Source of the DNA: Sphingomonadales bacterium Ga0077559
GTDB taxonomy: Bacteria; Pseudomonadota; Alphaproteobacteria; Sphingomonadales; Sphingomonadaceae
Direction: 5' to 3'
Assembly (NCBI GenBank): GCA_001464315.1
Contig: LNFK01000053.1
Coordinates: forward strand, 62,001-126,000
Length of the DNA stretch: 64,000 nt
Each line of letters starts with the position of its first letter. Position 1 is the first letter of the stretch. The notes beneath the pieces were generated by a model. It did not search any database, was not told the DNA's origin, and saw only the letters and a list, made by a program, of their open reading frames with translations. Shown piece after piece: positions 5,391-62,217 of this stretch. The position numbers were made by a program, and so were the translations under genes.

Positions 5391-6551
5391 CTACCGCCGC
5401 TGGTCAAACCGCCGCCCGACCATGGCGCTCGCAATGTTGACTTTCTGGATATCAATCGACCCGCCAGCAATGCCCCAGCCCCATGCGTCCCGCATCCGGC
5501 GTTCCATCGGGTAGGCGGTGGAATAGCCATAGCCACCCATCATCTGCACCGCATTGCCTGTCACATTTCGCGCAATCTGGTTGGCGAAGCATTTGGCGGT
5601 GCTGCTGTCGAGAATTGACGGCAGCCCTTTGTCGGCATTCACCGCGGCTCGCCAGATGAGCAGCCGCGCCGCCTCCACCTCCATTTGCATTTCCGCAAGT
5701 TTCATCTGCACCGCCTGAAAATCGGCGAGCGGTTTGCCGAACTGTTGGCGTTCCTGCACATAGGCGAGAACATCCTCGAGCGCGCCAGACGCCTGCGCCA
5801 ACGCCATTGTCGCATTGCCGCAGCGTTCTAGGTCGAATGCCTCCATCAGCTTAGCAAATCCGCCTGCCGGAACCACGATATTGCCTATCGGCACCTTCAC
5901 ATTGTCGAGGTAGATGTCAGCCGACGGCACCCCACGAAAGCCCATAAGCAGTTCAGGCTCGCCAAAGGTCAGCCCTTCCATGCCCTTCTCGACCAGCACC
6001 GCACCGATGCCTTTTGCACCGGGCGCATCGGACAGGCGGGTGTAAACGAGATACGCATCGCTACGCCCGCCGCCCGAGCACCAGCGTTTGGTGCCGTTGA
6101 TCGTCACTTTGTCGCCATCAACCACCCCGCGCGTTGTCAAGTCGGTCAGCGCGGTTCCGGCACCGGGCTCCGACATCGACACCGCGACGATCATTTCGCC
6201 GCGACATACCGCAGGCACGAAACGCTGCTTCAACGCTTCCGGCGCGAAATGGCGGATGGCTTGGACTGGCCCCACATTAGCTTCAAAACAGGGAAAGGCG
6301 ACCGCACTTGAGACCTTCGCCAGTTCTTCGAGTACAATTAGCGCGTCGAGATTGGAAAGGTTCAGGCCACCCAGTTCTTCGGGTATATTGATGCCCAAAA
6401 ACCCCATCTCGGCCATTCGTTTGACCATATCATGCGGCAGGGGTTCGTTATTCGCCTCAAGGCTCGAAGCCAGCGGAGCGAGCTCTTTTTGCGCAAAGGC
6501 ACGCGCGGTTTCTTTCAGTGCCTGCTGTTCTTCGGTAAAACTGAAATCCAT
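5391..6551 (-). CDS. Acyl-CoA dehydrogenase
   Basis: A 386-residue flavoenzyme of the acyl-CoA dehydrogenase family, expected to oxidise an acyl-CoA to the 2-enoyl-CoA using FAD and pass electrons to ETF. I use the ATG at 6551 (MDFSFTEEQQ), which has GAGGAG about 9 bases upstream. FAD/substrate signatures are seen: VAVSMSEPGAGT and WCSGGGRSDAY, plus GKPLADFQAVQ and GGYGYSTAYPMERRMRDAWG. The C-terminal position that carries catalytic Glu in medium-chain enzymes reads GIAGGSIDIQ, with no Glu. An alternative Glu in FDLERCGN (Glu242) matches the isovaleryl-CoA/long-chain type. A perfect 20-base palindrome lies just upstream of the start. Confidence 0.88.
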   Translation of the reverse strand: MDFSFTEEQQALKETARAFAQKELAPLASSLEANNEPLPHDMVKRMAEMGFLGINIPEELGGLNLSNLDALIVLEELAKVSSAVAFPCFEANVGPVQAIRHFAPEALKQRFVPAVCRGEMIVAVSMSEPGAGTALTDLTTRGVVDGDKVTINGTKRWCSGGGRSDAYLVYTRLSDAPGAKGIGAVLVEKGMEGLTFGEPELLMGFRGVPSADIYLDNVKVPIGNIVVPAGGFAKLMEAFDLERCGNATMALAQASGALEDVLAYVQERQQFGKPLADFQAVQMKLAEMQMEVEAARLLIWRAAVNADKGLPSILDSSTAKCFANQIARNVTGNAVQMMGGYGYSTAYPMERRMRDAWGWGIAGGSIDIQKVNIASAMVGRRFDQRR

Positions 6552-6565
6552 CGCCGCGCTCCTCA

Positions 6566-6585
6566 ATTTAATCGAACGATTAAAT
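6566..6585. promoter_or_regulatory. Perfect palindromic operator candidate upstream of the acyl-CoA dehydrogenase
   Basis: ATTTAATCG-AA-CGATTAAAT is a perfect inverted repeat with 9-base arms, located 14 bases upstream of the minus-strand start codon at 6551. Its size and symmetry are typical of a TetR-family dimer site, and fatty-acid catabolism genes are commonly controlled by TetR repressors. No TetR gene is adjacent. The site itself is observed; the regulator is inferred. Confidence 0.6.
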
Positions 6586-6608
6586 CAGTAGCGAACACAG
6601 CAATTCGG

Positions 6609-6947
6609 TCAACCGCCGTTTAAGGTCAGTTGCCTGAACAGGGCGCGGTCGAGCATTTCGTCGAACTTGCAACCGAGTCTGTCGCCTTCGGCCCAAACGG
6701 CGGTTGCGCTGATCGGGTTGCTGCCTGCAAGCCGCAGCCACAAGCGGTCGCCAACCTCGATGCTGCTGTCGATCAAAACTCGGCATCCGTAAATCGATAG
6801 ATCGACAAGGCGGGCTTCAATCGGATGCTTGGCATGGCGCCGGACTGTAGCTTTAGCGAGCAGCACAGGATGGCGCATTGCCTCGCGTTGTTCCAGCCGG
6901 GCAGGTTCAACTCTCCGATATTGCGACGTCATATAACCCATCAACAT
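6609..6947 (-). CDS. PilZ-domain protein (predicted c-di-GMP binding)
   Basis: A 112-residue single-domain PilZ protein. Both halves of the c-di-GMP binding signature are intact: RxxxR at residues 21-25 (REAMR) and D/NxSxxG at 49-54 (DLSIYG). Such proteins act as cytoplasmic receptors for cyclic di-GMP, influencing motility, exopolysaccharide or biofilm formation. No effector domain is attached, so the partner is unknown. A second in-frame ATG (residue 3) and third (residue 6) are alternative starts. It is flanked by metabolic genes and not by motility genes. Confidence 0.85.
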   Translation of the reverse strand: MLMGYMTSQYRRVEPARLEQREAMRHPVLLAKATVRRHAKHPIEARLVDLSIYGCRVLIDSSIEVGDRLWLRLAGSNPISATAVWAEGDRLGCKFDEMLDRALFRQLTLNGG

Positions 6948-7003
6948 CCCCTGACAAAAGGACTAGCGGGATAAGGTCAATATTCGGTAAATGTGAAATT
7001 CCG

Positions 7004-8407
7004 TCAATCGCCGGTCAATATCCGGTCCACCAGTTGCTGTACCGTGGGTACGAAGCCGTTCGAATAAAACGGATCCTTGCCAAACAGATAAGCGCTGTGC
7101 CCAGCAAACATCAGGTTTTCGTCGATTGGCGCACCGTGAGCGATATTCTGCAACGCCTTTTGGATACAGAAACTGCGCGGGTCAGCGAGCCGTCCGGTCG
7201 AGTTATTGTCATGGTCTTTCCATGAAGAGAATCCGCAATGTGACAGGCAGCCCATGCAATCCTTCTGGTCCTTACGGATGACCTCGCCCGATCCCGGCGT
7301 GACAAACACCAGCGTATTGTCCGGTGTCTTCAGCGCAACGGTGAAACCGCGTGCGTGCCATTCGCGGGCCTTCATCAAACTGGCAGTGGTCACCCAGAAA
7401 TTCTTGCCCTTTACGCCAACATCAAGCTGAGCGGTATGTTCAAGGTCGGCGGCCTGTACATAGGCAATCTGTCGGTCGGAGCGCGCCTGCAATTCGTTCA
7501 AAAATGGATTGATCACGGCGCTCGAATAAAATCCGGTTGGCGAGAACTGGTGCAGCAATACGCCGTCTTCCGGAATCTTGGTTAGCGCGTCTTTCCAGCC
7601 GTCTGGAATGGGGCTTTCTTGGGTCAACAATGGCCGCGTGCCAAGCTGAAAGGCTATTTGCCCAAGCTCGGGATTGTCGATCCAGTTTTCCCATTCACGA
7701 AGGAACCAGACGCCGCCTGCCATCACAATCGGCAGCTCGTCGGATATGCCTTCAGCCCGCATTACATCACGCAACGCTTTTACGCGCGGATACGGATCTT
7801 CGGGGCTACGCGGGTCTTCTGCATTGGAAAGGCCATTATGTCCGCCCGCAAGCCAAGGGTCTTCATATACCACGGCGCCCAGCCATTCAGGCACTTTATG
7901 ATAAGCGCGTTTCCACAACGCGCGAAAGGCCCGTGCGGAGCTGACAATCGGCAGATAATAGACGCCATATTGCGCGGCAATTTCAGAAAGCTTGTAAGGC
8001 ATTCCGGCACCGCACGTTACACCCGTGACCATGCCTTTGGTTGCTTCTAAAATTCCGTGAAGGATGCGCTGCGACCCGCCCATTTCCCACAGCACGTTGA
8101 TGTTGATTGCACCCCTGCCGTTTGCGATTTCATGTGCAAGCCGGACTTGGGCTATTCCGCCCTTGATGCCATATTCGACAAGCTCTTCATGCCGCTCTGC
8201 ACGGGTTTTGCCGTGAAAAACCTGCGGGATCATGTCACCATTTTCGTCATAGCTATCAGCATTAACTGCCGAAACGGTGCCAATTCCGCCGGCCGCGGCC
8301 CATGCTCCGGAACTTGCATGATTGGTTGCGGCAACACCTTTGCCGCCCTCGACCAGCGGCCACACTTCGCGACCACCGTACATTATGGGTTTCAGACCCT
8401 TGAACAC
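7004..8407 (-). CDS. Nitronate monooxygenase family protein with C-terminal cysteine cluster
   Basis: A 467-residue TIM-barrel flavoprotein of the nitronate monooxygenase / 2-nitropropane dioxygenase family. Family features include an N-terminal segment with ATNHASSGAWAAAGGIGTVS, ATKGMVTGVTCGAGMP in the middle, and the phosphate-binding GGVWFL and GQIAFQLGTRPL regions. It is longer than typical members (about 320-380 residues), and near the C-terminus it carries Cys-x2-Cys-x3-Cys (DCMGCLSHCGFSSW), suggesting a metal or Fe-S site not needed by simple nitronate monooxygenases. The true substrate is therefore uncertain. It stands alone on the minus strand between PilZ and glycosyltransferase genes. 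Confidence 0.75.
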   Translation of the reverse strand: MFKGLKPIMYGGREVWPLVEGGKGVAATNHASSGAWAAAGGIGTVSAVNADSYDENGDMIPQVFHGKTRAERHEELVEYGIKGGIAQVRLAHEIANGRGAININVLWEMGGSQRILHGILEATKGMVTGVTCGAGMPYKLSEIAAQYGVYYLPIVSSARAFRALWKRAYHKVPEWLGAVVYEDPWLAGGHNGLSNAEDPRSPEDPYPRVKALRDVMRAEGISDELPIVMAGGVWFLREWENWIDNPELGQIAFQLGTRPLLTQESPIPDGWKDALTKIPEDGVLLHQFSPTGFYSSAVINPFLNELQARSDRQIAYVQAADLEHTAQLDVGVKGKNFWVTTASLMKAREWHARGFTVALKTPDNTLVFVTPGSGEVIRKDQKDCMGCLSHCGFSSWKDHDNNSTGRLADPRSFCIQKALQNIAHGAPIDENLMFAGHSAYLFGKDPFYSNGFVPTVQQLVDRILTGD

Positions 8408-8478: not shown

Positions 8479-9627
8479 TCAGCTTTGTCGCGCAAAATCG
8501 GCGCGTTTCATCGCAGAACCATAGAGCTGGCGATAACGGGCAAACATCGTTGCTTCGTCATATTGCGAGCAGGCAACGAGCCGGTTTGCCTCTCCAACGC
8601 TCGCGCGCAAACTGGCATCTTCTGCGAGTTTTCGGATCGCCTCGGCCAATGCATCTTCGTCCTGACGTGCCACGATATAAGGCAGATTTTCGCGCGCAAC
8701 GATGTTGCGGACATCACCAACATCGGTCGAAACTGCGGGCAGCGCGCTAGTCATCGCCTCAACCAGCGAGATTGGATATTGCTCGCTGTCCGAAGACAAA
8801 GCAAAGATGTCAAACAGCCGAATATACCGCGCAGGATCTCGCAAAAAGCCAGGCATCATGACGCGGTCAGCTATGCCGAGCCGATCCGCCTCGGCCATGA
8901 TGGCGCCGCGTTCGGGTCCTTCACCGGCAATCGCCAGCCGGACATTCGGCCCGGCCGCAGCAACAGCGCGAACCAGACGCGGCAGGTTTTTGACTGTGCG
9001 AAGGCCAGCAATCGTGCCTACGACGATTTCGCCGTAGCGTTTCTGAAAACCTGGAAACGACCCACGTTGCGGGCGACGGTTGAAATGTTCGGTATCGATC
9101 GCGTTGGGAAACCGGCAGATTTTGTCGGGCGGCTGGTGCCAAGCATTGCGCGCAATCTGCTCAAGCGTTTTGGATGGCACCACCAGCGCATGGGAGCGTT
9201 GCAACGCGATCATCCGAAACCAGTTGCGGCGGGCTTTCAGCCGGTCGATTTCGTCATGGTTGAAACCGTCTTCATGGTGGATCAGCGGCGGCAGGCCCAT
9301 ACTTTGTCCAAGCAATGTGCGCGCCATCACGCCGTCCATCGACCCCCAATTATAGCTGAGTACAAGATGGAATTTCTTCATATATTTGGCGAGCCTGCGA
9401 TAGCGGCCCATGCCCGGCATTCCGGCGAGCGAAGGCGCGGCATCTTTAGGAAAGCTGACCTTGATCCGCTTATCGATCGCGTCCGCCGCGCCGAAAGCAT
9501 CGGGAACCGCCGACAATACCGTGTGCTCGGCCTGATCGCCAAAATGGTTCATCAACCGGACGGTACGCGATTCCTGACCGCCCAAATTGAAGCTGCTATG
9601 CAAATGGAGGATGCGTACCGCCGCCAT
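8479..9627 (-). CDS. Glycosyltransferase family 4 (GT-B fold)
   Basis: A 382-residue cytoplasmic GT-B glycosyltransferase. The N-terminal acceptor domain contains the glycine loop NLGGQES (14-20). The C-terminal nucleotide-sugar domain has IAGLRTVKNLPRLV and the family EX7E motif, Glu282 to Glu290 (SEQYPISLVEA). Family 4 enzymes transfer a sugar from a nucleotide donor with retention of configuration, usually in lipopolysaccharide or exopolysaccharide synthesis. No other polysaccharide genes are nearby, so donor and acceptor are unknown. It is divergent from selO with only 28 bases between start codons. Confidence 0.85.
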   Translation of the reverse strand: MAAVRILHLHSSFNLGGQESRTVRLMNHFGDQAEHTVLSAVPDAFGAADAIDKRIKVSFPKDAAPSLAGMPGMGRYRRLAKYMKKFHLVLSYNWGSMDGVMARTLLGQSMGLPPLIHHEDGFNHDEIDRLKARRNWFRMIALQRSHALVVPSKTLEQIARNAWHQPPDKICRFPNAIDTEHFNRRPQRGSFPGFQKRYGEIVVGTIAGLRTVKNLPRLVRAVAAAGPNVRLAIAGEGPERGAIMAEADRLGIADRVMMPGFLRDPARYIRLFDIFALSSDSEQYPISLVEAMTSALPAVSTDVGDVRNIVARENLPYIVARQDEDALAEAIRKLAEDASLRASVGEANRLVACSQYDEATMFARYRQLYGSAMKRADFARQS

Positions 9628-9655
9628 GCTTGTGTTTCCCTAATGCACCCCCCAG

Positions 9656-11053
9656 ATGGGTTTAATGCAAATCAAAGTCATGCCGTCCCCCTACCGCCCC
9701 GATCCGAAAATCACCAGTCTTGGTGAAAAAATCGGTGATGCGGTTCAGGCCGCGGATTTTCCGAAAACCATTTTGCGCTTTCGAAACGACCGCTGGGCGG
9801 CAACGGTAGGACTCGAATCTTTGAGAGATGACGAATGGCTTCAACATTTCGGACGTTTTGAACCACTTCTCGGAAATATGTCCGAACCGCTAGCGTTGCG
9901 CTATCACGGACACCAATTTCGCGTATATAATCCGGATATTGGCGATGGACGGGGATTTCTCTTTGCCCAGTTGCGCGACGGATATGACCGGTTGCTAGAT
10001 TTGGGTACCAAAGGGTCGGGAACGACGCCTTATAGCCGCCGGGGTGACGGTCGCCTGACGCTCAAAGGCGGGGTTCGCGAGATATTGGCCACCGAAATGC
10101 TCGAGGCATTGGGCGTCAACACCTCCAAAACCTTCTCGCTCATTGAAACCGGCGAGCAATTGATGCGCGGGGATGAACCTTCGCCGACGCGGTCTGCCAT
10201 GATGGTGCGGCTCAGCCATAGCCATATCCGAATCGGCACATTCCAGCGTATCGCCGCAGAGGGCGATGTCGAAATGATGGAACGGCTGGTCGAATATACT
10301 TTGACGAATTTATACAACGAAACGCCAACAGAAAATCCGGCAGCGCAGTTGCTCAACCTTGCGGTCGAGCGTATCGCCGATCTCGCAGCTTCCTATATGG
10401 TCGCAGGCTTTGTCCACGGCGTACTCAACACCGACAATATCAACATCACCGGCGAAAGTTTCGATTACGGCCCTTGGCGATTTACCGAATTTTGGGACCC
10501 GCGTTTCACCGCCGCCTATTTCGATGAGAGCGGATTATATGCGTTCGGCAGACAAGCCGAGGCGATTCACTGGAATCTGGGCCAACTCGCGGTTTCACTT
10601 CGGTTAATTTGCGAGGCACCACCCTTAATTGAAGCGTTGGAGCGGTTTCCGGGCCTTTTCCAGAATGCGATTGTTCGCCGTTTCCTGTGGCGGCTTGGCG
10701 TGGAACCGCGGGGCGAAGAAAGGGACAGGCTGCTGGTTGAAGCGGGTGAACGAGCCATGGTCCGCGAACAGATTCCGATTGACCGCCTTTTCTTTGAGCA
10801 TCGCGCCGGGCGCTCGGACGATCCCTCGAGATATGGCGAAATGCGCAGGGCCTTTGCCAAAATGCTAAGCGATTACCGCAATCCTGGTACCGCCGGACAT
10901 TCGTACTGGGCGAAAGCGGACCCCTGCTCAATGCTGATCGACGAAGTCGAGAGCATCTGGAGCGCAATTGCCGACAGGGACGATTGGGCCCTTTTAAATC
11001 GAAAGATATCTGCCATCCGGATTATGGGTGAAGCCCATGCGAAAGACCGCTGA
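9656..11053 (+). CDS. selO: Protein adenylyltransferase SelO (YdiU/UPF0061)
   Basis: A 465-residue pseudokinase-fold protein. In characterised homologues it transfers AMP from ATP to Ser, Thr or Tyr of proteins involved in redox homeostasis. Family motifs are clear: GHQFRVYNPDIGDGRGFLFA, GTKGSGTTPYSRRGDGRLTL around 117-136, and NTDNINITGE with the metal-binding Asp/Asn followed by DYGPWRF. ATGs at 9656, 9665 and 9680 are all in frame and none has a clear ribosome binding site, so the first few residues are uncertain. The bacterial form here has no selenocysteine signal that I can see. Confidence 0.9.
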   Translation: MGLMQIKVMPSPYRPDPKITSLGEKIGDAVQAADFPKTILRFRNDRWAATVGLESLRDDEWLQHFGRFEPLLGNMSEPLALRYHGHQFRVYNPDIGDGRGFLFAQLRDGYDRLLDLGTKGSGTTPYSRRGDGRLTLKGGVREILATEMLEALGVNTSKTFSLIETGEQLMRGDEPSPTRSAMMVRLSHSHIRIGTFQRIAAEGDVEMMERLVEYTLTNLYNETPTENPAAQLLNLAVERIADLAASYMVAGFVHGVLNTDNINITGESFDYGPWRFTEFWDPRFTAAYFDESGLYAFGRQAEAIHWNLGQLAVSLRLICEAPPLIEALERFPGLFQNAIVRRFLWRLGVEPRGEERDRLLVEAGERAMVREQIPIDRLFFEHRAGRSDDPSRYGEMRRAFAKMLSDYRNPGTAGHSYWAKADPCSMLIDEVESIWSAIADRDDWALLNRKISAIRIMGEAHAKDR

Positions 11054-40989: not shown

Positions 40990-41855
40990 CTCTTCACGGA
41001 CCTGTTACCAACAGCTTTATCTCTCAACGTTTGCGGCTCAATTATGTTGATTGGGGCAATGCAGACGCGCCGCCTTTGCTGCTCATCCACGGCGGACGCG
41101 ATCACGCGCGCAGCTGGGATTGGGTGGCGGAGGAATTGCGTAATGACTGGCACGTCATCGCGCCTGACCTGCGGGGGCACGGCGACAGTGCGTGGTCGCC
41201 CGATGGTAATTACGAAATGTCGGCGTTTGTCTACGACATCGCGCAGTTGATCCATCAACTGAACCTCGCGCCGGTGACGATTGTATCGCATTCGATGGGC
41301 GGCAATATCGCCATTCGCTACACCGGGCTTTATCCGGAAAATGTACGTAAGTTGGTTGCAATTGAGGGGCTTGGACCGTCGCCCGCGATGATAGCCGAGC
41401 GCGATGCTTTGGGTATCCAGAAACGCTTTCGCCAATGGATCGAGGACAAGCGCAACGCGGCAGGCCGCACGCCGAAGCGCTATCCGAATATCGAGGCCGC
41501 TTATGAACGGATGAAGTCGGAAAATGCCTATCTGACCGACGAACAAGCCCGTCACCTGACCGTCCACGGCATCAGCCGAAATGAGGACGGGACATGGAGC
41601 TGGAAGTTCGACAATTACCTCAATATCTGGGCAATTTTCGATATGCCGCGTGAGGATTTGGAGGCGATCTGGCACAATGTCACCTGCCCGATCCTGATGT
41701 TTTACGGCGAGAAAAGCTGGGCCTCGAACCCGGAAAAAGACGGTCGTATCGCGCATTTTCCGACCGCCAAAGTCATCGAATATAAAAATGCAGGGCACTG
41801 GTTGCATCACGATCAGTTCGACCGGTTTATGGCCGATGTGAAAGCGTTTCTCTAA
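40986..41855 (+). CDS. Alpha/beta hydrolase
   Basis: A 289-residue alpha/beta-hydrolase. The oxyanion segment is LLIHGGRDHARSWDWVAEEL, the nucleophile elbow is SHSMGGN, the acid is likely in CPILMFYGEKSW or nearby, and the catalytic His is in NAGHWLHHDQF. It is probably a soluble esterase or haloalkane/epoxide-type hydrolase; the substrate is not inferable. The ATG overlaps the smc stop (ATGA) and the 3' end overlaps the convergent ligase gene by four bases. Confidence 0.87.
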   Translation: MTLHGPVTNSFISQRLRLNYVDWGNADAPPLLLIHGGRDHARSWDWVAEELRNDWHVIAPDLRGHGDSAWSPDGNYEMSAFVYDIAQLIHQLNLAPVTIVSHSMGGNIAIRYTGLYPENVRKLVAIEGLGPSPAMIAERDALGIQKRFRQWIEDKRNAAGRTPKRYPNIEAAYERMKSENAYLTDEQARHLTVHGISRNEDGTWSWKFDNYLNIWAIFDMPREDLEAIWHNVTCPILMFYGEKSWASNPEKDGRIAHFPTAKVIEYKNAGHWLHHDQFDRFMADVKAFL

Positions 41856-43426
41856 CCGATCATCGACTTCAAAGTTTCGACGCGGTCGGCCTCCTCGGCT
41901 GGCTTGTCGCGGCGCAGACGGGATATGCGGGGGAAACGCATCGCTATTCCCGATTTGTGGCGTTTGGATTCGTGGACGGCGTCGAAGGCGACCTCGAGCA
42001 CCAGTGACTTTTCGACTTCGCGCACCGGGCCGAACCGCGCGATCGTGTTATTGCGCACGAAGCGGTCGAGCCATTTCAGTTCTTCGTCACTGAACCCCGA
42101 ATAGGCTTTGCCCACCGGCAGCAGACTGCCGTCTGCGCCCCAGCAACCAAATGTGTAATCGGAATAATAGGAGGAGCGTTTGCCGCTGCCGCGTTGCGCA
42201 TACATCATCACGCAGTCGGCAACCAAGGGCTCACGTTTCCATTTGTACCAGAGGCCGACTTTGCGGCCCGCCAAATAGGGCGCGTTGCGGCGTTTGAGCA
42301 TCACGCCTTCGATGGCTGCGTCGCGCGATCCGCCACGAATTGCGGCGAGATGGTCAAAATCGCGTGCCTCGATAATAGCCGATAGGTCGAAGCGCGCCGG
42401 GTCTAGCGTCGCAGCAAAAGCCTCCAACCGCGAACGCCGCTGATGCCAGGGCTGCGCTCGCAAATCGTCCGCGCCATCGAACAATATGTCATAGAGCCGG
42501 ACAAAGACCGGATATTCAGCCTGCATCGCAGCTGTCACCGTTTTCCGCCCAAGCCGCTGTTGCAGCGCATTGAAGCTTGCCGCCTCGCCTCCCTGTACTT
42601 CGCCGCGCACCAACAGTTCGCCGTCAACCACGCCGATGCCTTTGAAAGCGGCGGCGATTTCCGGAAAGGCCCCAGAAACTTCGTCGCCGCCGCGACTGAA
42701 CAGCCGAGTCTCGCTGCCGGTCGAAGCAATCTGGATCCTTATGCCGTCCCATTTCCATTCGGCAGCGTAGTCCGCGAGGTCGACTGTGCCGTCATCCAAT
42801 GGATGCGCGAGCATGAAGGGGCGGAAGAATGCGGTCTCGGAAGGATCAGGCCGTTCAGTCTTGCCCTCGCCCCATGCAAACAGTTCTGCATAAGGCGGAC
42901 GAAGCGCGTGCCAGACCTCTTCGACATCATCGACCGAGAGGTTGAAGCCTTGCGCAAAGGCTGTCTTTGCCAACCGCGCCGAAATGCCAACGCGCATCCC
43001 GCCCGATGCCAGTTTCAACAACGCGTAGCGGCCATCGGCGTCGAGTCGGTCCATCAGTTCGGCGAGCAACGATGGTGCCCGAGCGCGGCTGGCGTTGTTG
43101 AGGAGGTCTATGACTTCGCCAAGCGTCGGCGGCGAGGTGCCGGACAGATGCGGCAGCTGATCCCACATCAGCGCTACTGTCTCCGCGGTATCGCCAACAT
43201 AGTCGCGGCTCATTCGGAACAAGGCAGGGTCGAAACGGTCGTCGGCCATCGCCCGGATAGCGGTGCTTTTGACCGTTGCGATGCTGAGTGTTCCGGCAAG
43301 CGCCGCGAGCGCCCAGCCGCGATCGGGGTTGGGCGTGTCGCGTAGATAATCGGCGATCAGCCGAACCTTGGTGTCGCGCGAGCGGGTGTAGACTAGCCCG
43401 TCGATGAGCGAAGCGAAGCGTTCCAT
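41852..43426 (-). CDS. ATP-dependent DNA ligase (ligase-associated repair cluster type)
   Basis: A 524-residue ATP-dependent DNA ligase that is separate from the NAD-dependent housekeeping LigA. The N-terminal DNA-binding domain (1-200), the adenylation motif EWKWDGIRIQ with nucleophile Lys225, and the OB-fold domain with WYKWKREPLVADCVMMYAQR are present. Such ligases are encoded with a metallo-beta-lactamase exonuclease, as here (adjacent, sharing a base at the coding border). It likely seals breaks after exonuclease processing in a DNA-damage response. The DEXH helicase and PdeM genes often in this cluster are absent. Confidence 0.9.
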   Translation of the reverse strand: MERFASLIDGLVYTRSRDTKVRLIADYLRDTPNPDRGWALAALAGTLSIATVKSTAIRAMADDRFDPALFRMSRDYVGDTAETVALMWDQLPHLSGTSPPTLGEVIDLLNNASRARAPSLLAELMDRLDADGRYALLKLASGGMRVGISARLAKTAFAQGFNLSVDDVEEVWHALRPPYAELFAWGEGKTERPDPSETAFFRPFMLAHPLDDGTVDLADYAAEWKWDGIRIQIASTGSETRLFSRGGDEVSGAFPEIAAAFKGIGVVDGELLVRGEVQGGEAASFNALQQRLGRKTVTAAMQAEYPVFVRLYDILFDGADDLRAQPWHQRRSRLEAFAATLDPARFDLSAIIEARDFDHLAAIRGGSRDAAIEGVMLKRRNAPYLAGRKVGLWYKWKREPLVADCVMMYAQRGSGKRSSYYSDYTFGCWGADGSLLPVGKAYSGFSDEELKWLDRFVRNNTIARFGPVREVEKSLVLEVAFDAVHESKRHKSGIAMRFPRISRLRRDKPAEEADRVETLKSMIG

Positions 43427-44433
43427 TAGCCCTCGTCCTCGTCTTCGCGGCCGACCAGGTCCAGCGCGCGCGCCTTAAGTTGATGCAACTCGCACCACCG
43501 CCCAAGGGCATCGGTGCGACCATGCGTAATCCAAGTTTCGGACGGACGCAGTTCGAGCAAAGTTTCGGTCAACTCGTTCCAGTCGGCATGATCGGAAATC
43601 ACCAAAGGTAACTCGACATTCTTCTGCCTCGCGCGTTGCCGGACGCGCATCCAACCCGATGCCATCGCGGTCACTGGATCGGGCAAACGCCGGGCCCACC
43701 GATCATTGAGTGCAGACGGTGGCGCGATAACGATCTTGCCTTTTAACTCGCCCTTCGCGAGGCCGGTAGCCATCACTAGTTCGCCGAGCAGCACTCCGTG
43801 CGCTTCGTATAACTCGCACATTTTCTGCATTGCGCCGTGAATATAGATTGGTTCGTGATAACCAGCGAGGCGTAACTCTGCGATCACCCGCTGCGCCTTG
43901 CCCAACGCATAAGCGCCAACCGCGATACAGCCGTCAGGATTGGCTTCGAGCGCAGCCAGCAACTTCGCAATTTCACCCTCAATCGGCGGATGCGTGAACA
44001 CCGGCAGGCCAAAGGTCGCCTCGGTTATCAGAACATCGCAAGGCACGGGTTCAAACAACGCACAGGTCGGGTCAGCACGGCGTTTATAGTCGCCGGTTAC
44101 CACAACGCGTTCACCGGCATGTTCAAGCAGTATCTGAGCAGACCCCAATACGTGGCCCGCCGGGTGAAAGCTGACTTTTACACCGCGTTCTTCAAATCCG
44201 TCGCCGTAAGCAATTGGCGTTCCCATTTCCGTTCCATAGCGCAGCTCCATAATTGCCAGCGTTTGTGGTGTTGCCCATACCTTGCCATGACCGCTGCGCG
44301 CATGGTCGGCATGGCCATGCGTCACCAGCGCGCGGTCGGCTGGCCGCGACGGATCAATCCACATATCCGCAGGCTTTACATAAATGCCGTGCGCATGCGG
44401 TTCGATCCAATGTTGGGCGGCGGTTCGGGCGAT
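43426..44433 (-). CDS. Ligase-associated DNA exonuclease (metallo-beta-lactamase/beta-CASP)
   Basis: About 335 residues of a metallo-beta-lactamase plus beta-CASP nuclease, the usual partner of the adjacent ligase. The zinc motif is THGHADHAR with further ligands in HPAGHVLGSAQ and the C-terminal DHADW. The start is a problem: no ATG, GTG or TTG occurs where the family begins (ARTAAQHWIEPHAHGIYVKP). The best ribosome binding site, AGGAG (44440-44444), is 6 bases before an ATC at 44433. I use that as a non-standard start; an ATG at 44538 would add 35 unlikely residues. Confidence 0.85.
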   Translation of the reverse strand: MARTAAQHWIEPHAHGIYVKPADMWIDPSRPADRALVTHGHADHARSGHGKVWATPQTLAIMELRYGTEMGTPIAYGDGFEERGVKVSFHPAGHVLGSAQILLEHAGERVVVTGDYKRRADPTCALFEPVPCDVLITEATFGLPVFTHPPIEGEIAKLLAALEANPDGCIAVGAYALGKAQRVIAELRLAGYHEPIYIHGAMQKMCELYEAHGVLLGELVMATGLAKGELKGKIVIAPPSALNDRWARRLPDPVTAMASGWMRVRQRARQKNVELPLVISDHADWNELTETLLELRPSETWITHGRTDALGRWCELHQLKARALDLVGREDEDEG

Positions 44434-44523
44434 GGGAAACTCCTGAAAGCAATATGGGATGAGTTGAATGAAAAACCAGCAACTTATCTGGACGTTCCAC
44501 TCTTTAGAACATATATGGAACGG

Positions 44524-45765
44524 ATGACGCAATTGCAAATCACCGAAAAGCTCGCGATCCTCGCGGACGCCGCCAAATACGACGCCTCATGCGCATCGTC
44601 AGGAACCGTAAAACGGTCGAGCAGCAAAACTGGCGGCATCGGCTCAACCGAAGGCATGGGGATTTGCCATGCCTATGCGCCCGATGGGCGATGCATATCC
44701 CTGCTCAAAATCCTGCTGACCAACAGCTGCATTTTCGACTGCCATTATTGCATCAACCGAAAAAGTTCGAATGTGCGGCGGGCGAAGTTTACCGCGAAAG
44801 AAGTCGTTGATTTGGCGCTGAATTTCTACAAGCGGAATTATATCGAAGGTCTGTTCCTTTCGTCGGGGATCATCAAAAGCTCGAATTACACGATGGAGCA
44901 GATGGTCGAAGTCGCGCGGTCGTTGCGCGAGGATCATGATTTCCGGGGCTATATCCATCTCAAAACCATTCCCGATGCCGATCCTGAATTGCTGGAGGCA
45001 GCGGGACGGCATGCCGACCGGCTGTCGATCAATGTCGAGTTACCCACTCGCGCCGGGCTGGCGGCGCTTGCGCCCGAGAAATCGCAGGACCGGATTGAAG
45101 GCGCAATGGGTGGTCTCAAGACGTCGATACTGGACGGCAAAGACGCCAAGAAAAAATATCGTAGCGCACCGAATTTTGCGCCTGCCGGACAATCAACTCA
45201 GATGATTGTTGGCGCTGATGCCGCAACCGATAGCGACATCGTCCGGCGCGCTAATGGGCTTTACGATCAATTCGGGCTGCGCCGGGTCTATTATTCAGCG
45301 TTCAGCCCGATACCCGATGCAAGTGCGGTGTTACCGATGCAGCGCCCACCGTTGATGCGCGAGCACCGGTTATATCAGTCTGACTGGCTGATGCGTTTTT
45401 ATGGCTTTGCACCTCAAGAGGTGGTTGATGCGGCTGAGCCGAACGGCATGTTACCGCTCGACATCGATCCCAAGCTTGCGTGGGCATTGAAGCATCGCGC
45501 GCAGTTTCCGGTCGACGTCAACAGCGCGCCAAAAGCCATGCTGTGGCGCGTGCCGGGGCTTGGCACAAAGGCGGTGCAATCCATATTGCGCGCGAGGCGC
45601 TGGCGACGGTTGCGGTTGGAGGATGTCGGGCGCCTGACGGTATCTATAACGAAAATTCGCCCGTTTCTAATTGCTGACGGGTGGAGCCCCGGCGGGCTCA
45701 CGGACATGGAGCATTTGCGCGCCATGGTCGCGCCGAAGGTAGAGCAGCTGGAACTGTTCGCATGA
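44524..45765 (+). CDS. Radical-SAM DNA modification/repair protein with helix-hairpin-helix
   Basis: About 413 residues from ATG 44524 (an ATG at 44515 is an alternative; the open frame further upstream overlaps the opposite gene and is unrelated). The radical SAM cluster is Cys69-x3-Cys73-x2-Cys76 (CIFDCHYC). The N-terminal LAILADAAKYDASCASSGT and the C-terminal HhH (FPVDVNSAPKAMLWRVPGLG, then TKAVQSILRARR) match the family known as putative DNA modification/repair radical SAM protein. The reaction is unknown. It is coupled to the UdgX gene by ATGA and is divergent from the ligase/exonuclease pair. Confidence 0.88.
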   Translation: MTQLQITEKLAILADAAKYDASCASSGTVKRSSSKTGGIGSTEGMGICHAYAPDGRCISLLKILLTNSCIFDCHYCINRKSSNVRRAKFTAKEVVDLALNFYKRNYIEGLFLSSGIIKSSNYTMEQMVEVARSLREDHDFRGYIHLKTIPDADPELLEAAGRHADRLSINVELPTRAGLAALAPEKSQDRIEGAMGGLKTSILDGKDAKKKYRSAPNFAPAGQSTQMIVGADAATDSDIVRRANGLYDQFGLRRVYYSAFSPIPDASAVLPMQRPPLMREHRLYQSDWLMRFYGFAPQEVVDAAEPNGMLPLDIDPKLAWALKHRAQFPVDVNSAPKAMLWRVPGLGTKAVQSILRARRWRRLRLEDVGRLTVSITKIRPFLIADGWSPGGLTDMEHLRAMVAPKVEQLELFA

Positions 45766-47168
45766 TAACCGCGCGACTGTCTGCCGAAGATGATTTCGAT
45801 GGCTGGCGCGACCAGTGCCGCGGGCTGCTGCGGATCGGTGCCAAGCCAGAGGATGTAATTTGGCAAGTGGGCGATACTCCCACTGACCTGTTTGCGGCCA
45901 CAGCAAAGCTCTCCGCGCCGATCGGTCCGGCGATTGGCGTCCCGCCCGAATTTGTGAATCTGGCGCGCAGCGTGATTTGTCATACCGACCCGAAGCGCTT
46001 CGGATTGCTGTACGGCCTACTGACCGACATCAAGGCGCGGCGCAGGCGGATGGACGACGCGGCCGACCCTGTTCTGCGCAATCTGCACGATATGGCAAAG
46101 CATGTGCGCCGCGACATTCACAAGATGCGTGCCTTTGTCCGCTTTCGCCGCGTCGAGCAGGACGGAGCGGAACATTATATCGCCTGGTTCGAGCCTGAGC
46201 ATCATATCGTGCGCACCAATGCCGCGTTTTTCGTGCGCCGTTTTGCGGGCATGCAATGGTCGATCCTGACGCCGCAAATCTCGGTGCATTGGGACCGGCA
46301 AACGCTCCACGAAGGCCCCGCAGCGCGTAAGGAAGATGCGCCGAGCGAGGATGTTATCGAGGATCAGTGGAAGACCTATTATGGCTCGATCTTCAATCCG
46401 GCACGGTTGAAGGTGAAAGCGATGCTGAAGGAAATGCCAAAGAAATATTGGCATAATATGCCCGAAACTGCGCTTGTTTCCGAACTCATCAAATCTGCAC
46501 GAGGCCGCGAAGTCAGTATGATCGAAAAGGAAATTGTTCCCATCGCGGCCGACACGCTTGCGTCATTAAAGTCCGAAGCAAACCGGTGCCGCCGCTGTCC
46601 CTTATATGCCCCTGCGTCGCAAATCGTTTTCGGCGAAGGTCCTGAAAATGCACGCATCATGTTCGTCGGGGAACAGCCCGGAGATCAGGAGGATTTGGCC
46701 GGTTTACCGTTTGTCGGACCTGCTGGTCAGTTATTCAACGCAGCGCTTGCCGAGGCAGGCGTCGACCGTGCGCAGGCCTATGTCACCAACGCGGTGAAGC
46801 ATTTCAAATTCAAGCCGCAGGGCAAGCGCCGTATCCATGACAAGCCCAATGTGGGCGAGATTAACCATTGCCGCTGGTGGCTAAAACGCGAGATTGATCT
46901 GGTGCAGCCCGACTTGGTCGTCGCCTTGGGCGCGACGGCAGCGCGAAGCCTGACCGGGCGCAATATTCCGATAACCGCCAATCGCGGGCAGGTTTTCGAA
47001 AGCATTGAGGGCGTGCCAGTACTGGTGACTATTCACCCCAGTTATTTGTTGCGGCTGCCAGATGCGCAGCTCGCGGAGCAAGAGAAGGCAGTTTTTGTTG
47101 AGGATCTAAGGCAAACAAAAGCGATGGTTGAACGCGCATCAGCGCAAGGCGCCCGAACACCGGCTTGA
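45762..47168 (+). CDS. DUF4130-UdgX fusion: uracil-DNA binding/glycosylase family protein
   Basis: A 468-residue fusion. Residues about 1-250 form DUF4130 and 270-460 a UdgX-type uracil-DNA glycosylase domain. Motifs: GEQPG (303-307), KRRIH (355-359) and HPSYLLR (425-431). In UdgX the His of KRRIH forms a covalent bond with the abasic site, so it can trap uracil-containing DNA. Cluster-type cysteines are 276, 279 and 370; the fourth position reads NAVKHFKF (His347). It overlaps the radical SAM stop by four bases, the constant pairing in this family. Confidence 0.88.
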   Translation: MITARLSAEDDFDGWRDQCRGLLRIGAKPEDVIWQVGDTPTDLFAATAKLSAPIGPAIGVPPEFVNLARSVICHTDPKRFGLLYGLLTDIKARRRRMDDAADPVLRNLHDMAKHVRRDIHKMRAFVRFRRVEQDGAEHYIAWFEPEHHIVRTNAAFFVRRFAGMQWSILTPQISVHWDRQTLHEGPAARKEDAPSEDVIEDQWKTYYGSIFNPARLKVKAMLKEMPKKYWHNMPETALVSELIKSARGREVSMIEKEIVPIAADTLASLKSEANRCRRCPLYAPASQIVFGEGPENARIMFVGEQPGDQEDLAGLPFVGPAGQLFNAALAEAGVDRAQAYVTNAVKHFKFKPQGKRRIHDKPNVGEINHCRWWLKREIDLVQPDLVVALGATAARSLTGRNIPITANRGQVFESIEGVPVLVTIHPSYLLRLPDAQLAEQEKAVFVEDLRQTKAMVERASAQGARTPA

Positions 47169-61404: not shown

Positions 61405-62217
61405 TTAACGCTGACATTTTGCGCAGTAAAAGGTGGATCGACCCGAATCAACACGGCGTTTCACCGGCGCGCCGCAGAGACATAGTAGGCCTTCGCGGCC
61501 ATAGACTCGCCAGTCCTTTGCGAAATAGCCAAGCTCGCCATCGGGCGCGGCAAAGTCGCGCAACGTCGATCCCCCCGCTGCGATGGCTGAGATAAGTACC
61601 TCCTTGATTGACCCCACCAGCCGTTCGAGGCGCGGCTTGCTTATCTTCGTCGATATGGTTGTGGGCGATATTCCCGACATATGCAGCGCTTCGCACACAT
61701 AGATATTGCCCAGCCCGGCCACGATATTCTGGTTCAGCAGCATCGCCTTTATCGGCGCAACGCGGCCTTTTAGCGCCTCACGAAGCACATTCGCGTTAAA
61801 ATCGTCTGACAATGGCTCAGGCCCCATCCCGACAAATGGCTTGTACGCGTTAATCTGCGATAAGGGGGTAATATCGAGCGATCCAAATCGCCTCGGGTCA
61901 TTCAGCGCCACCAGCCTGCCGCTATTGGTCTCCAAGACAAAATGGTCATGCTTTTCAAGCTCGCTTGGATCGACTCGCCAACGCCCCGACATGCCGAGAT
62001 GAAAAATCAGTATATCTTCGCGGTCAGTATGGATCATCCCATATTTGGCGCGACGCGACAGCCCGGTGATCCGCGCGCCGGTCAGCCGCTGCCGCAGGTC
62101 AACCGGCATCGGCCAGCGCAAGTCCGCACGATATGCCTCGGCGCGCCTTATCGTCTCGCCATCAAGCACCTTGCGTAGGCCAGCGACGGTTGTTTCTACT
62201 TCGGGCAATTCAGGCAT
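61405..62217 (-). CDS. mutM: Formamidopyrimidine-DNA glycosylase
   Basis: A 270-residue bifunctional glycosylase/AP lyase removing 8-oxoguanine. The N-terminal catalytic Pro-Glu is in PELPEVETTVAGL (Pro2, Glu3), Lys near residue 57 is in the usual place, and the helix-two-turn-helix QNIVAGLGNIYVCEALH is followed by the C-terminal zinc finger (CLCGAPV ... FYCAKCQR). It complements MutY in 8-oxoG repair. It stands between rpsT and a pseudogene. Confidence 0.95.
   Translation of the reverse strand: MPELPEVETTVAGLRKVLDGETIRRAEAYRADLRWPMPVDLRQRLTGARITGLSRRAKYGMIHTDREDILIFHLGMSGRWRVDPSELEKHDHFVLETNSGRLVALNDPRRFGSLDITPLSQINAYKPFVGMGPEPLSDDFNANVLREALKGRVAPIKAMLLNQNIVAGLGNIYVCEALHMSGISPTTISTKISKPRLERLVGSIKEVLISAIAAGGSTLRDFAAPDGELGYFAKDWRVYGREGLLCLCGAPVKRRVDSGRSTFYCAKCQR

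Follow-up and report, generated by a model that had tools for sequence, protein, structure and literature searches.

A predicted clamp-targeted SOS operon of a radical-SAM protein and DUF4130-UdgX, and its recurrent junction with an exonuclease-ligase module in Alphaproteobacteria

The 64,000-nucleotide stretch of DNA analysed here (the window; positions 62,001 to 126,000 of contig LNFK01000053.1, denoted C53, in the 2.86 Mb genome of Sphingomonadales bacterium Ga0077559) carries four genes arranged as two divergent pairs. One pair, module A, encodes a radical S-adenosylmethionine (SAM) protein and a fusion of DUF4130 with UdgX; the other, module B, encodes an ATP-dependent DNA ligase (Lig) and a metallo-β-lactamase (MBL)-fold, ligase-associated exonuclease (Exo). 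As a whole, the data are best explained by a clamp-targeted SOS repair operon, module A, that has repeatedly been joined to an end-processing module, B, and we place the probability of this reading at roughly 0.55. It is built on what can be read from the sequence, namely the identities and order of the genes and a LexA box and a clamp motif together with their conservation.

The radical-SAM protein ends in APKVEQLELFA, within which QLELF is a predicted β-clamp-binding pentapeptide; the bacterial clamp-binding consensus is given as QL(S/D)LF in the accessible part of a review (PMC9690074). Among 80 radical-SAM loci taken from GTDB, a terminal peptide of the QLxLF type was found by pattern in 78, the other two reading QFELF. 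As a control, a loose form of the pattern was sought in the 30 C-terminal residues. All 79 radical-SAM open reading frames (ORFs) found by script had it, compared with 4 of 1009 other ORFs of at least 250 aa, which were delimited mechanically in the same loci and include some that are not genes. The family scored above its cut-off in 53 of 299 genomes of a phylum sample, and the motif fitted 26 of the 27 new loci examined out of these 53 genomes, the exception (L193) reading QGSLF. Phage and plasmid records contributed another 11 loci (Acinetobacter, Caballeronia, Pusillibacter, Parabacteroides, Bacteroides, Acetoanaerobium, Gemmatirosa and four unassigned faecal contigs), all of which it fitted. 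Beyond the GTDB set the motif thus fits 37 of 38 loci, some of them from other phyla. Between the helix-hairpin-helix (HhH) motif and the clamp motif the tails vary in length and sequence, and at several of the phylum, phage-record and plasmid-record loci the motif stands short of the very end, behind a long and dissimilar tail. Clients of the β-clamp are marked by a peptide of the QL(S/D)LF type within a tail that otherwise varies, and the radical-SAM proteins show this pattern. Overlap with the partner gene does not explain the motif, because it is retained in the 17 of 74 loci whose partner gene begins more than 60 bp away. No report of a clamp tail on TIGR03916 proteins was found in the open-access literature searched, and the papers found there that join radical SAM with the sliding clamp include, by title and start of abstract, none on this family.

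The operator GAACATATATGGAAC at 44507-44521 is an exact match to GAACN7GAAC, which in its two forms, GTTCN7GTTC and GAACN7GAAC, we take to be the alphaproteobacterial LexA operator motif. A LexA box was present within 250 bp upstream of the conserved N-terminal anchor of the radical-SAM protein in 78 of the 80 GTDB loci, the remainder of these loci having a box density of 0.009 per 250 bp, and the commonest placement (48 of 79 placements, 81 loci covered) ends 2 nt before the ATG. The recA and lexA genes of the window's genome are each preceded by an exact box of the same form; the operator stands at a conserved place and is common to recA and lexA, as in an alphaproteobacterial LexA regulon. 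A single box in the window proves nothing, because about two chance matches, both forms counted together, are expected per 64 kb and the window has two; it is the conserved position that counts. Judged on this motif, the radical-SAM/DUF4130-UdgX pair is probably switched on by DNA damage. SOS control of the corresponding COG1573-COG4277 operon is published for Bacteroidetes in the accessible part of PMC8565304, which cites other work for Verrucomicrobia and Alphaproteobacteria. The box therefore bears out, in a new genus, what was already known.

The proximity of the two modules was examined at several taxonomic levels. In the family (199 genomes), a radical-SAM protein was above cut-off in 127 genomes and Exo in 159, and at least 114 genomes had both among the 150 Exo genomes listed. 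In these 114, modules A and B lay within 3 kb of each other in 3, within 10 kb in 8 and within 25 kb in 11, against 0.2, 0.7 and 1.8 expected by uniform placement over an assumed 3.2 Mb; because the genomes are related to one another, the small P values calculated for this excess are underestimates. When the window's genus (G000 and G764) was left out, 6 of 112 genomes listed had the modules within 10 kb. Among the genomes listed, the closest union outside the window's genus was found at L245, from a different genus of the same family, where the four genes lie on one strand with overlapping ends behind a single LexA box; this is one genome, and two others of its genus have Exo and no radical-SAM match. 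In a further arrangement (L149, Brevundimonas bullata), one strand carries MPE, Lhr, Lig and Exo, followed by a LexA box and then by the radical-SAM and DUF4130-UdgX genes on the opposite strand; 1.4 kb of unread sequence separates Lhr from Lig. At L246, Exo is separated from the radical-SAM operon by an Lhr helicase gene (TIGR04121, 1035 bits), and no Lig match was found at this locus.

The 37 genomes of the window's genus include 9 with a radical-SAM protein above cut-off, 22 with Exo and 8 with both; G032, with a radical-SAM fragment below cut-off (60 bits), and G030, with Exo in two pieces, were left out of the counts. The divergent layout is present at 7 of the 9 radical-SAM loci, the modules lying on different contigs in G036 and Exo being absent from G015. 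Co-presence was tested at two levels: Exo was found in 8 of 9 genus genomes with a radical-SAM protein against 14 of 28 without (P 0.04), and in 10 of 12 against 52 of 228 in the class (P 3e-5), both values uncorrected for kinship or genome size. Taken together as sequence evidence, these patterns suggest that modules A and B work together.

The sequence-only reading had described the four genes as one compact island whose co-occurrence should extend beyond close relatives. As a statement that the island is conserved this has to be given up, since Exo-Lig was within 8 kb in 2 of the 80 GTDB loci, L093 of the window's own genus and L149, as far as the flanks reach (7.9 kb on both sides in 60 loci, 2 kb upstream in 76). 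Nor was Exo or Lig found within flanks of about 1.5 kb in a class sample of 240 genomes, in which other genera supplied 11 radical-SAM loci. Two of these 11 genomes had no Exo above cut-off, two had it on the same contig more than 200 kb or more than 700 kb away, one had it more than 1.5 Mb away and six had it on other contigs, some of them so short that the two genes could still be close. Outside the window's genus, the exact divergent island was seen in Brevundimonas bullata only. The looser claim of linkage beyond close relatives is upheld by L245, by L149 and by the excess within 10 kb among the genomes listed.

Several points weigh against a clamp-targeted SOS operon that has been joined to module B. 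LexA binding to the box and docking of QLELF on the β sliding clamp are both predictions from motifs. The 80 GTDB loci are all alphaproteobacterial, by title or by likeness, and reduce to 28 at <80% identity and to 9 at <70% identity; the loci are related, and therefore counts among them are not independent. No exact box of the alphaproteobacterial type was found before 15 non-alphaproteobacterial radical-SAM genes (L174, L193, L197, L200 and L201-L211), and on the sequences compared the form of the box is alphaproteobacterial. Of the 114 family genomes listed, 64 have the modules on different contigs and 42 on the same contig at a distance of more than 10 kb. Exo-Lig occurs without module A in 14 of the 22 genus genomes with Exo, and G015 has module A without Exo. 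At the Exo gene itself, no exact LexA box was found within 200 bp upstream at any of the 15 genus Exo loci that have no radical-SAM neighbour, or at 18 of the 20 class Exo loci looked at, of 62 genomes above cut-off.

These distances, missing boxes and Exo-Lig pairs without module A are also what would be expected if two independent repair modules were accidental neighbours, only module A being inducible by damage while Exo-Lig, on its own promoter, works with Lhr and MPE. The sequence-only reading had taken the divergent gap for a shared promoter region serving one response; the LexA box at the radical-SAM start bears this out for module A, and a general rule by which Exo shares the LexA control is unsupported. 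Scanning the divergent gap for promoters gave no hit. A TTTACA...CATAT stretch that by eye resembles a promoter of Exo's own is common to the genus Exo loci without the neighbour, and the Exo loci with it seem to retain something similar. Five Brevundimonas genomes have the modules adjacent once, at about 17 kb and about 30 kb once each and twice on different contigs, and therefore adjacency there could stem from local rearrangement. What speaks against chance is that close arrangements of differing form occur in three genera, one of them an overlapping four-gene operon, and that proximity among the genomes listed is in roughly tenfold excess, uncorrected for kinship. We regard accidental neighbourhood as possible and yet doubtful. 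With respect to regulation, Exo-Lig is, from the upstream sequences, not generally an SOS unit, and at L245 SOS control should be exerted by read-through. A minority of Exo loci may be under LexA, because the two boxes among the 20 class loci compare with 0.27 expected on the cleaner background (P ~0.03); on a background that holds conserved boxes 0.7 are expected (P 0.16).

The radical-SAM protein scored 566.8 bits against the TIGR03916 cut-off of 343.5, covering positions 1-388 of the 415 of the profile, so that it is a full-length member, and it combines the CX3CX2C motif with a DUF4130 partner gene as members of the family do. Of 81 relative loci, 74 have a partner that could be delimited; of the other seven, five end within 1.3 kb of the gene, and at L104 and L128 the nearest 8 kb hold no partner. 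Three cysteines (C26, C51 and C60) and H52, upstream of CX3CX2C, are kept in 18 of 19 aligned proteins (the window's and 18 chosen divergent members). They are jointly lost in the Gemmatirosa relative at L211, whose score of 303 bits is below the family cut-off. These four residues may form one metal site; in the structure model, residues 21-47 have a predicted local distance difference test (pLDDT) value below 50, the radical-SAM barrel having a mean pLDDT of 84. The L211 protein (6001-7272) has the radical-SAM cysteines and a QLSLW tail, no DUF4130 or UdgX neighbour was detected beside it, and it possibly represents a paralogous family. With regard to a virus or plasmid origin, relatives were present in 2 loci of IMG/VR, in 158 plasmid records and in 10 records of phage collections. 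In L201 (CAKLQH020000003.1), a record named as an Acinetobacter phage, glyQ, glyS and aidB surround the radical-SAM gene, and the sequence looks bacterial-chromosomal.

The chemistry of this protein bears on two further explanations. A label of 'SplB-like photolyase' was used in 2013 (accessible part of PMC3765255), and the protein could accordingly be imagined as an enzyme like spore photoproduct lyase (SPL) that directly reverses a UV lesion, UdgX being merely a co-regulated neighbour. The CX3CX2C motif and the DNA-binding motif would suit such a DNA substrate. Membership of SplB is nevertheless unsupported, since TIGR03916 was the sole NCBIfam match at E 0.001, with no SPL model among the results, and no photoproduct lyase appeared among the best 50 PDB fold matches listed by Foldseek. 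These were HydE, BioB, HydG, ThiH, LIAS, MiaB, viperin and similar proteins, at template-modelling (TM) scores of about 0.3-0.4 on the query, and the label is unsupported here because the barrel comes nearest to HydE, BioB, HydG, ThiH and LIAS, if at modest scores. To our knowledge the set C26/C51/H52/C60 is not a feature of SPL, and we hold direct reversal to be very improbable.

It could also be that the radical-SAM protein and DUF4130 together modify DNA, or a protein bound to it, instead of repairing it, for example by marking nascent DNA under stress, and that UdgX removes mis-modified or uracil sites. The NCBIfam name reads 'modification/repair', and the N-terminal cysteines before CX3CX2C are laid out much as in enzymes with an auxiliary cluster, of which lipoyl synthase is one; LIAS is among the fold matches listed. 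SOS control, as described in the accessible part of PMC8565304, and the company of UdgX, Exo and Lig suit repair better, and modification is in our judgement improbable. A table of gene sets reconstructed for ancestors, in an essay (PMC8307549), includes a 'putative DNA modification/repair FeS-containing radical SAM protein' without giving a function, and no described reaction for the TIGR03916 family was found in the open-access literature searched. The sequence-only reading was right to that extent in calling the radical-SAM reaction undefined; the SOS regulation of its operon was already in print in PMC8565304, as far as the accessible part goes.

The second protein of module A contains GEQPG, KRRIH and HPSYLLR in its UdgX part, the motifs by which UdgX is defined in the accessible part of PMC10359453. 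In an alignment of 54 fusions, selected from 75 rows with short partners excluded, every row had the cross-linking histidine and GEQPG, and K355 and R356 were almost invariant. The UdgX half shares about 50% identity with the solved structures of M. smegmatis UdgX, which excises uracil and covalently caps the abasic site (PMC10776899 and PMC10359453, accessible parts), and on these motifs the window's UdgX is predicted to capture abasic sites covalently. For DUF4130, a profile search gave no relative of known structure, the matches being confined to the UdgX half, and the fold matches listed for the full-length model were, where named, of uracil-glycosylase type. At L146, L155 and L168 the DUF4130 partner is 276-277 aa long and has no UdgX part. 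The core pair may, from the sequences, be the radical-SAM protein and DUF4130, with UdgX optional. A hemerythrin-like gene lies between the radical-SAM and DUF4130-UdgX genes in 10 of 74 loci, Sphingomonadales where titled (L094 at 9512-9985, L095, L096, L097, L100, L101, L103, L109, L127 and L136; PF01814 assigned from the L094 protein). An intervening gene as a general third component was rejected at this frequency; the hemerythrin-like protein perhaps guards an oxygen-sensitive enzyme.

For a clamp-targeted SOS operon joined to an end-processing module, we infer a repair role, cooperation of the two modules and the following order of events. DNA damage would lift LexA from module A, and the radical-SAM protein and DUF4130-UdgX would then be produced. 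The QLELF tail would bring the radical-SAM protein to the clamp at replicating or gap-filling DNA, the UdgX part would excise uracil and covalently cap the resulting abasic site, and radical chemistry together with DUF4130 might act on the damaged or capped nucleotide. Exo and Lig, with Lhr and MPE supplied from another locus, would trim the blocked end and seal the nick. In this complete form, a replication-coupled SOS pathway in which a clamp-riding radical-SAM enzyme and capping by UdgX are followed by release of the cap or damaged sugar through DUF4130, radical chemistry and Lhr-MPE-Exo-Lig, with trimming and sealing, the proposal is tentative and rather unlikely. If true, it would mean a dedicated bacterial pathway for protein-capped abasic sites, centred on a clamp-tethered radical-SAM enzyme. 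The clamp-binding tail would turn an orphan enzyme into a testable proposal of action at replicating or gap-filling DNA, the recurrent union with Exo-Lig names probable downstream enzymes, and the L245 operon is a compact four-gene set.

Coordinates of the features in the window and at locus L245
Feature	Locus	Position	Strand	Details
Lig	Window	41852..43426	-	ATP-dependent DNA ligase, TIGR04120, 756 bits; KWDG nucleotidyl motif with Lys225
Exo	Window	43426..44433	-	MBL-fold ligase-associated exonuclease, TIGR04122, 449 bits; 335 aa; most likely ATC start codon
Predicted LexA (SOS) operator GAACATATATGGAAC	Window	44507..44521	.	2 nt 5' of likely radical-SAM start codon
Radical-SAM protein	Window	44524..45765	+	TIGR03916 / rSAM_link_UDG; 413 aa
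Radical-SAM CX3CX2C motif (CIFDCHYC)	Window	44728..44751	+	Conserved C26, C51, H52, C60 upstream (416-aa numbering)
Helix-hairpin-helix motif	Window	45508..45597	+	Pfam HHH_3, under gathering score
QLELF, predicted β-clamp-binding pentapeptide	Window	45745..45759	+	C terminus of radical-SAM protein
DUF4130-UdgX fusion	Window	45762..47168	+	TIGR03915 (211 bits) and TIGR03914 (309 bits); 468 aa
DUF4130 domain	Window	45993..46466	+	PF13566 match, residues 78-235
UdgX domain	Window	46539..47114	+	TIGR03914 match, residues 260-451; contains KRRIH cross-linking loop
LexA box	L245	1595-1609		
Radical-SAM protein	L245	1628-2878		
DUF4130-UdgX	L245	2875-4302		
Exo	L245	4302-5315		
Lig match	L245	from 5312		

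The four genes lie where the sequence-only reading had placed them, and all four proteins exceed the curated NCBIfam cut-offs of the families it had named. The ligase lysine and the CX3CX2C motif that it had picked out were also recovered, and an HGHADH motif is present as well. The C-terminal HhH is a sub-threshold Pfam match, HHH_3 scoring 19.7 bits where the cut-off is 27. Coupling within each pair and divergence from a gap of 80-90 bases were confirmed: the radical-SAM and DUF4130-UdgX genes overlap by 4 nt, Exo and Lig by 1 nt at 43426, and the gap measures 90 bp between the starts at 44433 and 44524, or 81 bp if the ATG at 44515 is used. The ATG at 44524 is, from the sequence, the more likely start of the radical-SAM gene, because the ATG at 44515 falls inside the LexA box and is absent from relatives; the latter start was rejected.

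The Exo gene of the window has no ATG in reach and two TTG codons, both far upstream. An ATC or ATT at the same codon was present in 17 of 18 genus Exo genes scanned by script, the window included; L085 gave no pattern match, and L086, outside the scan, has an ATG by eye. In 7 of 17 genus Exo genes an in-frame stop lies 14 codons 5' of a conserved Trp with no ATG, GTG or TTG between; two of these seven also carry an ATA, and at L082 the ATC is preceded, at two codons' distance, by an ATG. Translation of Exo most likely starts at the ATC at 44433, because no ATG is in reach and ATC/ATT is kept at that codon in the genus. Start codons of this kind are very rare, infC and pcnB being examples, and the apparent non-canonical ATC/ATT start of Exo (43426-44433, minus strand) and of genus loci L072-L091 is an observation in its own right.

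The outer neighbours of the four genes are ordinary, with an SMC-like ORF (labelled from its translation) and an alpha/beta hydrolase on one side and glycerol kinase on the other. In the 14 genus genomes that have Exo and no radical-SAM protein, Lig adjoins the hydrolase in 13, the fourteenth contig ending at Exo. The glycerol kinase gene glpK is on the other side in 12 of the 14, at about 0.3 kb from Exo in five loci, 0.65 kb in one and 3.9 kb in six. The Exo-glpK stretch at genus loci L072-L085 is a site of gene gain or loss.

Module A has its closest known counterpart in the COG1573-COG4277 operon (TIGR03914/TIGR03915/TIGR03916), which has the same two proteins by family names and, as here, a LexA box directly upstream. 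The accessible part of PMC8565304 does not mention a clamp tail, and in the window the operon also faces Exo-Lig. M. smegmatis UdgX shares the GEQPG, KRRIH and HPSxLLR motifs and about half of its residues with the window's UdgX, which, unlike it, is fused behind DUF4130 and overlaps a radical-SAM gene; the accessible text of PMC10359453 makes no mention of SOS, radical SAM or operon, and that of PMC10776899 contains none of radical, SOS or operon. Module B belongs to the bacterial Lhr-Core/MPE/Exo/Lig nucleic-acid repair cluster (TIGR04120-TIGR04123), with Exo and Lig above cut-off, adjacent and overlapping at their ends. Lhr and MPE are not in the same gene cluster here, the set being split because both lie on contig C75 rather than C53; in L149 all four face the radical-SAM operon. 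Pol IV and ImuB are SOS proteins recruited by the clamp, and module A resembles them in combining LexA control with a clamp peptide of the QLxLF type close to the C-terminal end or directly at it, the cargo here being a radical-SAM enzyme and not a polymerase or adaptor. Each module is already known; the clamp tail and the union with Exo-Lig were found nowhere in the open-access literature searched.

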